Shown here: positions 49,331-56,977 of the stretch, one piece after another
Layout of the letters: each line of letters begins with the position of its first letter
Numbering within the stretch: position 1 is the stretch's first letter
Assembly (NCBI GenBank): GCA_010093605.1
Contig: MU004185.1
Location: 1,385,334-1,449,333, forward strand
DNA length: 64,000 nucleotides
Direction: 5' to 3'
From: Lophium mytilinum
Lineage: Eukaryota > Ascomycota > Dothideomycetes > Mytilinidiales > Mytilinidiaceae
Made by a program: the position numbers and the translations under genes
The notes under the pieces: model-generated
Database searches by the model: none
What the model saw: only the letters and a program-made list of their open reading frames with translations
What the model was told of the DNA's origin: nothing

Positions 49331-51467
49331 TTACTTTTTCGTGGTAGTCTTCGCAGTCGTAGTTGTCTTCTTGTCATCACTTTTTGTCGTCGTAGTGGCC
49401 TTGGTGGTAACCGTCGTGGCCGCTGTTGTGCTCGTCTGTGCGGTGGTAGACTTAACGCTACTCTGGAGGGTAGAGGGCACTGCCGCGCTCGGGTTGTTCC
49501 AGTATGATACTAGGGCTTCCTCAACTTTGTCAATATCCTTGTACGCATCAAGGAGGTACAGCTCATTGATACGCTCTTTAATGTGCTCCTCCTCGAAAGC
49601 GCTGTCCGTGATATCTTTAGAGCGGAACCGCTGCTCCATGGGGTCGATAAAGTGGGTGGTTTCGGGGTAGCCAAAGTGTTCCAGCACGGTAACGTTGAAG
49701 GCAGCCATCATGTCGTGGTCCTCGTGAATCAAGTTGTGGCAATGGAACATGTACACGCCATCCCAGGGGGCATAGCGAGCGATGACTCGAACAGTCTCAC
49801 CAGTTCCTAAGAAAACCACGTCTTTTAGGGCCACCTTCTCGTACTCAAGAACGGGACGACTCCCGCCGGTGCGTGAAAGAATTTGCATGTCGATAAGATG
49901 GATATGAACCTGTTACCAATCAATTAGCCGAGTTCTTCGAGAATCATCGTCGGTAACTGTCCAAGAGGCAAAGTAAAGATGACACAGGAGAAATTTACCG
50001 GATGAGACCATCCGCCACCTCCGTTTTGCAATTCCCAGATTTCCACTGCTCCACGTGGAGGCTTCGCAATGATACGGTTCTCAACTTCAGAAAACGTCAC
50101 GCCATTGATCTCCCATTCGCCATTTGTTCGCTCAAAACGGAAGGTCCTGTCAACTCCGCTCTTTAGCGGCGGGAAGGGAACTTCCCTTAAAGGTGATGGG
50201 ACGTTCCCGTTTCCTTGCTGGCTCGTAACCGTGTTTCCAACAACAAATTTCATGACCTTGTCGGTGCTGTTGTAGTCCTCATCGGCCTGTACTTTGCGGT
50301 TGTTCCTGAGTGTGACATTCTTGCCTGCGAATTGGGTGAAGTCGAACACCATTTCCCAGCGCTCGGCCATCGAGATATGAAGAAGATCCGATGTAACTGG
50401 CATGCTCAATAACCCAGCGTCGGAACCGATCATCTGGAACGGAATCTTCGTTCCCAATGCACCATCAGCTTCAAACCATAGCTGGAATGCACGGCTGATA
50501 GACGTATCGAGAAATCGGAAACGGTATTTGCGTGGCTCGACCTTGAAGTAGGGCCATGGCTGACCATTGACATGTATCACATCGCCGTAAAGACTGACAG
50601 TCTCAGAGGCAGGGCTGAACAAGGTACCGTCACTGTTGTACTGTTTGGCGGCAAGAGCCAACGGGATGTCATAATCCCCGGCCGGTAGGCCTAGGGCATC
50701 TTCGGCGGGGTCGTGGAGAATGTAGAACCCGGCTTGGCCAAAATAAGCATTCTCGGCAGTGTGGTGGACAGCGTGATCCTAGACAGTGTTAGTGAGGGTT
50801 GCGTCATAGAAAAGCCAATAGCACATACATGGTACCACAGAGTGCGGGCGTTCTGCTTGTTTGGATAGTCTGCAGGGAGCACATCGGATTAGACTCCAAA
50901 TCCCAGGGTAATATTTCGATCCGCTTCGGGCTAGTGAACTTACAATAATCCTTATACTGGCCCTTCTGTGTGGTGTCTTCGGCCCAGCCATCGAATGGCG
51001 CTCGGCCTGCTGAGTGTCAGAACTAGAATGTTTCTTGGGACGTTTCAGAGCCATACTGTAACTTCCATGCAAATGAACCGAATTGGCCAAGTCCCCGTGG
51101 TTGATGAATCTCAAAACAGCCTCTCTTCCACGCTCCATGTGGAATGTAGGGCCTGGTGAGATTCCATCGTATCCGATGAGCTGGGTTTTACCCAGGCCGG
51201 GATAAACTTGCTGCTCCAGAGGTTTAATGTCGACTTCATAGTAGTCAATGACCGCGCCGGTGGTTTGGTTCACATATGATCTACAAGCATAAGTAGCTGC
51301 ATTCCGAATTGAGGATCTGATGCTTACGTTTTTGGCGTCTTAACTGGAGGAAGCGGGAGTGGGAACTGGTAGAAGTCCTTGTACACAGGACTCAGCCACT
51401 TGTCATCGCCTGCGAGAGAAGTTCCTGCTAGGAGTGCCACAAGGGCAAGACACCGGAGGCTTGTCAT
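49331..51467 (-). CDS. Secreted multicopper oxidase, bilirubin-oxidase type
   Basis: Six exons, 51328-51467, 51057-51280, 50944-51006, 50829-50869, 49999-50778 and 49331-49909, give 608 aa. A signal peptide (MTSLRCLALVALLAGTSLAG) is followed by three cupredoxin domains. All four copper-binding blocks are present, several built across splice junctions: HLHGSYS, WYHDHAVHHTAENAYFGQAG, HPVHIHL, and HCHNLIHEDHDMM, the last with Met as axial ligand of the type-1 copper. The WSHPVHIH context, with Trp two residues before the first His, is that of the bilirubin oxidase group rather than classical laccases. Likely substrates are phenols, tetrapyrroles or metals; this cannot be settled here. The C-terminus carries a 60-residue Thr/Ser/Lys-rich tail (TTAATTVTTKATTTTKSDDKK), which may be O-glycosylated or cell-wall-binding. 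No melanin cluster genes are nearby. Confidence 0.92.
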
Positions 51468-52709: not shown

Positions 52710-52720
52710 GTTGGGTGCCG
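52710..52720 (+). repeat. Left target-site duplication (11-bp direct repeat)
   Basis: GTTGGGTGCCG, identical to 56967-56977, immediately outside the left inverted repeat. Confidence 0.75.
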
Positions 52721-52724
52721 GTTT

Positions 52725-52768
52725 GGATCCGGGCAGGCCGATTGCGTAGGCCGATTGATCACGTGCTC
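52725..52768 (+). repeat. Left terminal inverted repeat of MULE
   Basis: 44 bp starting GGATCCGGGCAGG. It contains an internal direct repeat GGCCGATT (twice, 13 bp apart) and ends in CACGTGCTC. It matches the reverse complement of 56917-56960 with a single G/A difference, itself a RIP-type transition. Confidence 0.92.
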
Positions 52769-53159
52769 TTGTAAACAAACTTAACCGAATTTTATAATTT
52801 TTATAAAATTATTAAATTAAACTTAATACTAATTAAATATAAATAACTATTAAATTATATAGCGCCCTCTTTAAATTCTATAGCCTTAATATTCTAATAT
52901 ATATACTTACCTCTAGTAAATTTAGAGAACTTAGGCCCTTTAGAAGTAGCCGGGCGCTTTCTATTTTATACTATATTTTTTATTATTTTTTTTACCTTTC
53001 TATTCTATTTCTTTCTATTTAATAAGGGTTCTTCTATATAGTTCTTATTTTTATAGTTAGGCTTATTATTATTAATACTAAGAATTATCTTATCTAGGCC
53101 CTAATTATCTATTTTATTATATCTATAGTAAATTCTATTTATATAAGTTAAATAAGGAC

Positions 53160-55530
53160 CCCCTATAACTATAGTATATCTAGAAGCTAGAGAGGGGGTA
53201 GATATAGATAAGATTATCTATAAAATAAGATAAGAATCTCTATTAGAAGTGCCCTATAGTAGTAGCTTACTATCTAGATAGTTAAAGAATATTATATTAT
53301 TAATAACTTTCTTCTCTATTTACTTTTCTTTCTTTTTATTATACTTTATAGAGTACTCTACCTTATTAAAAGGCTCTATAGCCTTAGTAGTATTATCTAC
53401 TATATTTTTATTATTTTTATCTAGCTTCTAAAGCTCTATATAGTTATATTATAATAGATTAAATTAAGGTTAGTAAGTAGCCTTATAGGCGGCCTAAGTA
53501 GCTCTTTTTTTTTTAGCCTTCTTTTCTTTATATACTATAATATTAGCTAAACTCTTAGCTAACTCTATACTAGTTAAAGCCCTCTAATTTACTTTACTAT
53601 ACTTCTTTATAGGTTATAGGTAATAAACTAATAAAGGTAGAATAGTAAACTCTATATTACTTAGTACTAGCTAGAGTTTACCTTTTCTCTTTAAATATAA
53701 GGTAATTTAGCCCTCTAGCCCTTCTAACTTAGTAGTAATATAGCTAACGTTATTATCTAGAAGCCTATTAACTTAATTAATAAGGTAGAGGGCTATATTA
53801 TATATTCTATTAATTTTAATAGCCTAATTTAATACTAGATTACTCTCTATTATAATACTATCTATAAAATAAGGCGCCTATTCTTTCTTAGCTATTATAT
53901 TCTATACTAGCTTCTAGCAAGGGTAAATAAGGCCTAATAGAATAGCCTTATCTATAAGAACGCTTTAAGAGAGGAGATAGAGGTATAGAAGACTAAATTA
54001 GTAAGAATTATTATACTTATAATTAGATAGAGACTAATCTTTATCTATATATAAAGCTAATATAGCTAATAATATATTCTTAGCCTTATAGAGTAAATTA
54101 AATACCCTCTTAAGTATAAAGTATATAATTTTCCTATTTAATTTAGTAAAGTAATAGCTAAAATAATTAAGTATAATTTTTCTTAGAAGTATAATCTTAT
54201 ATAAATATTTCTTAGCTACTAACTTACTAAATAGAATATTTATCTATATCTATAAATTTTACACGCACCTTTTAAGACTTAATTAGGGGTTTATAAAGTA
54301 CTTTAAGGCGTAATTTATACCTTTAAAATATATAGAGCCGGCTATACTAAAATTTAAAAGCTTTCTAGTAAGGTATAAGTTAAGAAAGTTAAATAAGAAA
54401 ATAAGATAAGGCTAGTAGTATAATAGGTACACCGCCTATAATATAATATATATAGAGTATATATAGACTACCTTTATATATTTTTAGTTTATAGTAAGTA
54501 TATAGATAAAAATAGGTAGGCTATAGAGCCTTATATATAAGCTTACGCCTACCTATATATAAGATTAATATAGAAGGTATACTAAGTATACCTCTATATA
54601 CTAAATTTTTATAATATACCTATCTTTAATATGCGTAGAGTATATAGATAATAAAAATAATAGAAAAATTTAAAAATATAATAAAAAAAGCTCTAAAACT
54701 TACTAGATATAGACTATTATTAAGTACTTCTCTTTAGCTATATATATATTCTTAAACTAGGGCTTATTAACCTCTTAGAGCTTATCTAGAATTATTTTAT
54801 AATTTTTTTTAAGGTTCTCTATAGTTAATAACTTTATATATAGCTAGAATAACTTCTTTACCTCTATATAATATATAGTAGTATAGTTTTTACCTTTAGT
54901 AATACTCTTATTAATTTACTTTTTTATTACCTTTACTCCGTGCTACTAATAGAGCTAGAGAATAATACTAAGAAACTACCTCTATAGTAGCGCGGCTCTT
55001 AACCCTTTTCTAAAGTCTACTATAATTACTTTAGACCTATAATCTTTAGGCTAAATAGAACCCTCTATATACTCTAATATAAAGCTCTAGAAAATAGCGT
55101 CCTTCTCCTTTTAAAGAAAGAATATAGCTAAAAAGAAGCGGTTTATATTAAATACGCTAGTAATAATTCTAAGCTTTAATTTAGCCTAATTTATATTAAA
55201 AGTGGCGTCTATTTAGTAGTAATAATTAGTAATAAATCTCTAGCTAAAGGCCTCTATATTCTTAGTCTAGAAAACTATTTACTAGAGATTATAGGCTATA
55301 TATTTATCTATATATAGATTAACTTTATATATATATTATAAGTAGTATTTAAAGCCTATAGTATAAAGGTAGAGCTCTAAAATAAAGAGGGTATTCTTCT
55401 TTATATACTAGTTAGATAGAAGAGTATATAGGTCTTACGCTAGATTATAGTACTTTTTTTTTAATATACTTAGCTCTTAGAGGTTTAATTAACGCCTAGT
55501 AGTTTTATATATTTTACCTATTCTTTATAA
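53160..55530 (-). pseudogene. Degraded MULE transposase
   Basis: Read on the minus strand, this stretch is a long frame broken by many TAA/TAG stops. Around 55280-54880 it gives AFS*RFITNYYY*IDATFNIN, then AKLKLRIITSVFNINRFFLA, VIIVDFRKGLRAALL and L*L-Y-*-*-H-GVKVIKK. These match the MULE transposase core: first catalytic Asp in D-ATFN-N (codon at 55207-55209), second Asp in the (G/V)DF-KGL block (about 55015-55017), and the C-x-W-H motif in which TGC and TGG have become TAT and TAG (about 54940-54950). Near 53420-53165 the frame VDNTTKAIEPFNKVEYSIKY is also protein-like. The boundaries are estimates; the whole of 54880-53420 was not aligned. Confidence 0.7.
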
Positions 55531-56049
55531 TTTAATTGCCCTCTCTATAGCCTTATAGGCCTCTAGCTAGTAATTTTAGTAGTAAATATATATAAATAGA
55601 TTTAGTATTATTCTATAAGCCTTATTATCTTCCTCTAAGTATTTTCTATAGTAATCTAGGTACGTAATTATAGAAATCTAGGCTATTTCTATACAGCCTT
55701 TATATATTTATATCTAACTAATATATATACTCTATAAGTAATTAAACTTACCTATAATAGTTCTCTTCTTCTACTAACTATTCTTCTACTTTAATTTACT
55801 TAATTAGTAATAGTTCTAGGTTTCTAAACTATAGTATTTATACACTATATAGATTACCTAAACTTTTAATATCTTAGTACTAGATCTAGAGTCTCTAACT
55901 ACTAGAAAGCCTTTAAAAAAGAAGTAATCTATATAGCGCTTAATACCTTTCTTCTATAAGTTAAACTTCTTACCCTTAATAGGTTCTAGAAGGTAGTAAA
56001 TAGATATTTAATTAATTACTTTTTATATAGAGGTAATAAGATTTAAATA

Positions 56050-56750
56050 TAACTAAATATCTAGAATCTAAACGCGGCGCTATAGAGGTAGTATAAGAGA
56101 GCCTAATTATAGCTATAGTTTATCTAAAGAGGGGCGTGTAGGTCTAGAAGTATAGTATTAAGAATTAATAAAGTTATAGTATTTTTAAGTAGATAATAAC
56201 TTAATAGATTATAGAAGTAGAGGAAACTTATTAGAGTACCTAGGTAGACTACTTTTAGTATAAATAGTAGGGGTAGAAGTTTTTAGAGGTATAGAACTAG
56301 AGCCCTATATACTTAGCTAATAAGAGAGAATATATAGAGGTATAAGAGGGGTTAATTTAATTAGAATTAGCCTTTTTTTATAGCTAGATATATAGCTATA
56401 TAGCTATATATAATACTAAATAATATAAATAGGCTAAATAAAGGGCTAATTAAAATAGAAAGGCTATATAGAAGGCTGCATAAATAGTAAGTATAGTAAT
56501 AGAACTATATAAAGTAGTAGAGGAGGCCTTTTAATTAAAGATTTATATAAAGAAAGAGGGCTTCTATTATTATCTAATAATAGATTAGATATTATAAATA
56601 TAGAGAATAGATAGAAAATAAAAATAGAAGAGAGAGAAGCTATTTAATATTAAAATTAATAAAATTAGTAAGGATTTCTATAATAAATATACCTATATAG
56701 GCGCGTTAAGGGCGCAGTTCCCTACTATTAATTAATAATATATTCTTATA
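56050..56750 (+). pseudogene. Second degraded open frame inside the MULE
   Basis: From about 56050 the plus strand becomes purine-rich and gives a frame with regular stops but protein-like sense: YLANKREYIEV*EGLI*LEL, then IELYKVVEEAF*LKIYIKKE and KLFNIKINKISKDFYNKY. It is Lys/Glu/Gln-rich and opposite in orientation to the transposase. The family is not recognised. Confidence 0.4.
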
Positions 56751-56916
56751 GCTAACTAACTAAAAATATACTAGATATAATATATATATATATAGCTATT
56801 AATTTATTATATTAGATTAAAGTTGCGATAATTATTAGTGGAGTTGTAATTTTTTGTATAGGGCTATTCTAACATGGCCGTGTTTTAATTTTGTGAAGTT
56901 TATAATATAGGCGAGC

Positions 56917-56960
56917 GAGCACGTGATTAATCGGCCTACGCAATCGGCCTGCCCGGATCC
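56917..56960 (-). repeat. Right terminal inverted repeat of MULE
   Basis: Reverse complement of the left repeat (52725-52768) with one mismatch; begins GAGCACGTGATTAATCGGCC and ends GGATCC. Confidence 0.92.
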
Positions 56961-56966
56961 TGGCCG

Positions 56967-56977
56967 GTTGGGTGCCG
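56967..56977 (+). repeat. Right target-site duplication (11-bp direct repeat)
   Basis: GTTGGGTGCCG, identical to 52710-52720, just outside the right inverted repeat. Confidence 0.75.

Follow-up and report, generated by a model that had tools for sequence, protein, structure and literature searches.

A Mutator-like transposon of Lophium mytilinum killed by repeat-induced point mutation, with ends left readable

Here we describe a 4248-bp Mutator-like element (MULE), named W, in a stretch of 64,000 nucleotides of the genome of the ascomycete Lophium mytilinum (assembly GCA_010093605.1, contig MU004185.1, positions 1,385,334 to 1,449,333; C5:1385334-1449333 in our contig numbering). This stretch is called the window. 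With a probability of about 93%, we conclude that W is a DNA transposon of the Mutator superfamily that has a 9-bp target site duplication, was killed by repeat-induced point mutation (RIP) and probably has readable ends since RIP tends to fade at the borders of repeats. A sequence-only reading of the window, made without database searches, had recognised the element, and our analysis supports that reading apart from the duplication length and a detail of the stop codons. W itself is ordinary in kind, being a further member of the known fungal MULEs, but it is useful as a case of border sparing with a control in the same genome: RIP damage halts before the ends of isolated repeats, and where the surroundings are AT-rich it extends to the very tip of the same end. 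This bears on the finding of transposon ends in RIP-active genomes and on the question whether dead elements could be moved in trans. The searches for profiles, copies and ends covered the genome of 43.2 Mb (24 contigs), in which three further complete insertions were found at C3:1885252, C22:167613 and C1:3416465 (below C3, C22 and C1). The features of W are, in window positions:

52710..52718, no strand: left target site duplication GTTGGGTGC, identical to 56967-56975
52719..56966, minus strand: Mutator-like element, 4248 bp, RIP-degraded, transposase frame on the minus strand; two further gap-free 4248-bp copies
52719..52768, plus strand: left terminal inverted repeat, 50 bp, tip CGGTTT, 46/50 with the right arm; 6 CpA+TpG retained
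54973..55215, minus strand: read-through stretch matching Pfam MULE (PF10551, residues 586-666, 25.8 bits, below the cut-off of 27.6), with the blocks IDATF and VIIVDFRKGL
56917..56966, minus strand: right terminal inverted repeat, 50 bp, tip CGGCCA, 46/50 with the left arm; 5 CpA+TpG retained
56967..56975, no strand: right target site duplication GTTGGGTGC, identical to the left one

Direct repeats of 11 bp had been proposed as flanks of the element, and direct comparison confirmed that the 11 bases at 52710-52720 and 56967-56977 are identical. However, all four complete insertions begin with CGG, finish with CCG and are flanked by 9 identical bases: GTTGGGTGC at W, CTCGCCAGC at C3, GTACCTACC at C22 and AACTTGTTG at C1. 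Because the three other insertions place the start of the element at CGG, the two extra bases belong to the tip, and a target duplication of 11 bp was rejected in favour of 9 bp. The inverted repeats match at 43 of 44 positions over the length first reported, as claimed, and the full arm is 50 bp (46/50). According to passages of PMC6446971, MULEs have target site duplications of 8-11 bp and, in most members, terminal inverted repeats of 14-500 bp, which are absent in some; the arms of W and the 9 bp found at all four sites fall within these ranges. The interior had been called almost pure TA-rich sequence, and its G+C content over 52770-56900 is indeed 0.244. Since the two 300-bp flanks of W have a G+C content of 0.57 and 0.56, compared to 0.24 within the element, the AT-rich island starts and stops with W; the AT-rich stretch is real, but it is the element itself and marks no larger region.

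A genome search for the terminal repeat, which the sequence-only reading had suggested, did reveal further copies. The core of the end (21 bases, at most three mismatches) gave 9 matches, against none in a reversed control. The insertions C3 and C22 are, like W, exactly 4248 bp long, the three align without gaps, and each has its own 9-bp duplication. C1 (C1:3416465-3417100) is a short relative of 636 bp that is not RIP-mutated as judged by its indices (TpA/ApT 1.11, (CpA+TpG)/(ApC+GpT) 1.05). In a relic on contig C2, near 7.9 kb, the left end and the greater part of the interior are missing.

For the family assignment, stops were treated as residues in 12 read-through frames, namely all six of W and the three minus-strand frames of both C3 and C22. 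One of the six frames of W matched a transposase family (PF10551, E 1.5e-5), and this was the minus-strand frame in which MULE transposase blocks had been reported. The corresponding frame of C22 scored 29.0 bits, above the Pfam cut-off. MULE was the sole transposase family matched in the 12 frames, with three matches, one per copy and all in the corresponding frame; the remaining listings were RMF (E 0.89) and DUF1514 (E 0.16). The blocks IDATF and VIIVDFRKGL, which we take to be catalytic blocks of the MULE transposase, are readable in the minus frame of W. Some observations weigh against the assignment: W stays 1.8 bits below the cut-off, C3 reaches only 14.8 bits (E 0.039), the sister element L057 described below scores 24.6 bits, and the third catalytic residue of the DDE triad could not be placed in the read-through of W. 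The low scores of W and C3 would also suit another superfamily such as hAT, an outcome the sequence-only reading had itself considered, or an unclassified element with terminal inverted repeats. Against this stand the score of C22, the absence of any hAT match in the 12 frames and the duplication of 9 bp at all four sites, compared to 8 bp for hAT elements of another fungus (PMC6710886, passages), and we regard a different superfamily as highly improbable. The frame of W contains 106 stops (60 TAG, 45 TAA and 1 TGA). They had been described as former Trp, Gln and Arg codons; the stops are present, but the claim for Arg is unreadable from W because 105 of the 106 are TAA or TAG, and this copy does not reveal which stops derive from codons for Gln, Trp or Arg.

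In total, the profile search of the whole genome gave at least 17 MULE places, at least 16 of them above the cut-off, C22 included. Among these, L057 (C10:819482-823753) represents a sister family. It is 4272 bp long and has perfect 68-bp arms and a 9-bp duplication; in comparison with the read-through of W it is 49% identical across 895 aa and 43% identical across 520 aa. The end pattern CGGNNNGNTCCGGGCAGGCC...ACGTGCTC is common to both families. Among systems described in passages of the literature, the MULE-Cglob sub-group of the Hop group of ascomycetes shares the MULE transposase and has ends of 51 bp compared to 50 bp in W (PMC6446971). Its duplication length is listed there as 'not indicated', and the likeness is one of description. 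According to the same source, Phantom-Ca of ascomycetes has a 9-bp duplication and 34-bp ends. VdMULE1-3 of Verticillium dahliae, as described in passages of PMC3441728, are likewise fungal elements (3.4-3.6 kb) with a MULE-domain transposase and inverted ends. They differ in the duplication, which is 8 bp at one element, and in their ends of 53-86 bp (text; 73-86 bp in the table) with terminal GGNAA, where the W family has CGGNNNGG.

The interior of W carries a strong RIP signature. Over 52770-56900, TpA/ApT is 1.64 and (CpA+TpG)/(ApC+GpT) is 0.09, far from the background of 0.75 and 1.17 in the window from 1 to 52709, so that the indices proposed for checking turned out extreme. The pairwise differences among W, C3 and C22 are almost all transitions (380/387, 370/376 and 247/250), with non-transition changes in 8 of 4248 columns, two of them in the tips. 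W is the most damaged copy, with a G+C content of 0.253 compared to 0.328 and 0.333 in C3 and C22. For the direction of mutation within this family, the only readable part is the left 94 bases, which are also present in C1; past the tip, W and C1 differ there at 9 positions, 8 of which are C>T or G>A. Direction and context were read from a control family, with L036 (C2:1522872-1525723), a lightly mutated MULE of another family whose own frame is interrupted, as reference. Its copies at C5:2082314 (L049) and C19:946282 (L052) showed C>T or G>A in 459/466 and 639/647 substitutions, and the mutated fractions in L049 and L052 were 0.84 and 0.97 for CpA, 0.51 and 0.80 for CpG, 0.09 and 0.20 for CpC, and 0.01 and 0.04 for CpT. 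An excess of C>T and G>A with a preference for CpA, as in RIP, was found, the W family giving the transitions and the control family giving direction and context. This provides a measured spectrum for the lineage: CpA first, then CpG, and little CpC. The transitions among copies, the extreme indices and the CpA-first spectrum of the second family bear out the earlier claim of RIP activity.

Genes of the C5 cytosine methyltransferase family are present at three loci in the genome, which speaks in favour of RIP. Two of these were domain-scanned. One of the two, in region L044 1-3312 (C9:1580320 region), encodes a large C5 methyltransferase in which DUF7893 and, below the cut-off, BAH were matched; by size and domains it is presumably DIM-2-like. 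The genes are assigned at the level of the C5 family and are no more than candidates for RID or DIM-2, which weighs against the RIP interpretation.

The GC-rich ends had been described as spared relative to the interior, and in W this is the case. Its outer 50-mers hold 6 and 5 CpA+TpG compared to an average of 0.27 in interior 50-mers, and the spared zone at the left end is about 50 bp long, that at the right end about 150 bp. Taken together, the outer 50-mers of both ends hold 11, 12 and 12 CpA+TpG in W, C3 and C22, and the interior means are 0.27, 1.17 and 1.44. However, these ends are not spared in every setting. The C2 relic is surrounded by AT-rich DNA, and its right end differs from that of C3 at 31/120 positions, including bases 1, 2 and 7, and all 31 differences are C>T or G>A as judged by eye from the alignment. 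Because this end is mutated down to its tip, the ends are not immune to RIP.

We compared the ends of 14 elements, made up of 12 of the 17 MULE places (11 regions and C22) plus W and C3; 12 of them are mutated, and L036 and L037 are little mutated. L040, L053, L054 and L056 were left out for want of a credible inverted-repeat pair; C17:202177 has no row of its own, as it lies inside L039. In all five mutated elements that lie between AT-rich flanks, the outer 50-mers are AT-rich too (TpA 8-15 and CpA+TpG 0-3 each). Among the seven with normal flanks, five are spared (W, C3, C22, L057 and L048), whereas L049 and L052 are not well spared. The cases are not independent: with W, C3 and C22 forming a single family and L049 and L052 a second one, these seven represent four families. 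A contrast of L047 with L048 as members of the same family was dropped, their outer ends being different. Over the outer 100 columns of both ends, L049 retains CpA at 7/16 sites compared to 46/307 inside, and L052 at 2/16 compared to 6/307.

Several points weigh against border sparing. L049 and L052 have normal flanks, yet their outer 50-mers keep only 3 and 1 of the 6 CpA+TpG of L036; the fading is therefore a tendency and not a rule. The outer 50-mers of L057 hold few informative sites (2 TpA and 2 CpA+TpG each). The five AT-flanked elements are without an unmutated reference, and their ends were judged from base composition. Three of these five are without a target duplication, which makes the borders of L047, L050 and L051 less certain. 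L055 and L039 have weak duplications made up of A and T only, and the arms of L051 and L055 are nearly the same.

Taken together, the observations suggest the following history. As the anatomy shows, a DNA transposon of the Mutator superfamily inserted here with duplication of 9 bp of its target, presumably by the cut-and-paste movement of that superfamily. The element was present in several copies, in which RIP changed C to T, CpA first, and in the end left about a hundred stops in the transposase frame; the spectrum shows this course, and the sexual cycle and the enzyme that it requires are likely to have been present. RIP acts over the shared repeat and tends to fade near the border with unique DNA, which is probably why the outermost 50 to 150 bp, together with the inverted repeats, are still readable. 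In repeats surrounded by other AT-rich repeats, the ends are mutated too, as in the C2 relic and, by base composition, in five other elements. The sparing of the ends is thus probably due to fading of RIP where the shared homology stops.

As reported in passages of PMC4858203, mutation by RIP in Neurospora stays within the shared homology, and one construct had few mutations over its first ~130 bp, a likeness to the ends described here. Unlike in that account, the repeats of L. mytilinum are natural and CpG is also strongly mutated. In Pseudocercospora fijiensis, RIP-biased elements likewise keep recognisable inverted repeats and target duplications, 99 of them being complete (PMC6710886, passages). 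These differ in being hAT elements with 20-bp ends and an 8-bp duplication, with RIP at two end positions. In the literature searched, at the level of passages and listings, we found no statement of a border rule for RIP in natural repeats.

Instead of fading at repeat borders, a protein or chromatin on the inverted repeats might shield the ends from RIP. All six arms of W, C3 and C22 are spared save for one site, and the poor sparing of L049 and L052, which belong to another family and lie in normal flanks, would fit a family-specific shield. However, the same right end is mutated at 31/120 positions, bases 1, 2 and 7 among them, in the AT-rich DNA around the C2 relic, and the second family, L049 and L052, likewise retains more CpA near its ends. 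We therefore consider a shield improbable and prefer fading at the borders.

It is somewhat less improbable, though still unlikely, that a dead element moved after RIP with a transposase supplied from elsewhere, and that the spared ends are simply those of copies that could still be moved. Each copy has intact ends and its own duplication. Furthermore, W, C3 and C22 hold 106, 92 and 91 stops, of which 86 are common to all three, and their interiors share 661 TpA (1322 on both strands) compared to ~161-268 expected from unmutated DNA. Independent mutation predicts only about 10-28 interior CpA sites mutated in all three copies. At non-CpA sites where the relic kept C, the mutations of W, C3 and C22 also coincide more often than expected by chance (odds ratios 16, 29 and 9; p 0.001, 5e-6 and 0.04). 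On the other hand, both copies of the control family are mutated at 279/338 CpA sites without a shown dead ancestor, and their mutations coincide outside CpA too, with odds ratios of 20 at CpG and 13 at CpC; at interior CpA of this family, coincidence was weak (odds ratio 2.9, p 0.22). Since the retained CpA sites are mostly GCA (48% of 115, compared to 11% of the common TpA), site preference explains part of the overlap. In addition, the relic retains only 5 usable CpA sites, and both natural TpA and the alteration of contexts by RIP itself confound the context counts. A combination in which RIP spares the borders of dispersed repeats and so yields dead bodies with working ends, some of which, perhaps W, C3 and C22, moved again in trans, seems doubtful to us. 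If true, RIP would make non-autonomous elements and not simply end mobility.

The tips of the copies differ in bases 4-6, which in W lie at 52722-52724 and 56961-56963. One end has TTT and the other CCA; the left end is TTT in W and CCA in C3 and C22, with the interior in the same orientation in all three. Gene conversion could have swapped the tips, and recombination between the inverted arms, which would flip the interior against the tips, is equally possible. In C1 the corresponding bases are ACT and TTT. Over their first 92 positions the two arms of C1 agree at 89, and the inner sequence of the left end is present in both. The interior of C1 in part resembles C3:2326497 (81% over 106 columns) and is possibly a captured fragment. 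L036 has 130-bp arms and an 8-bp duplication, and its DNA matches 72 pieces in the genome, many of which are end pieces counted on both strands. Within the window, pieces of a multicopper oxidase gene (Pfam Cu-oxidase_2 and Cu-oxidase_3) were found at 49331-51339 on the minus strand, and W lies ~1.4 kb beyond the upstream-most piece found.
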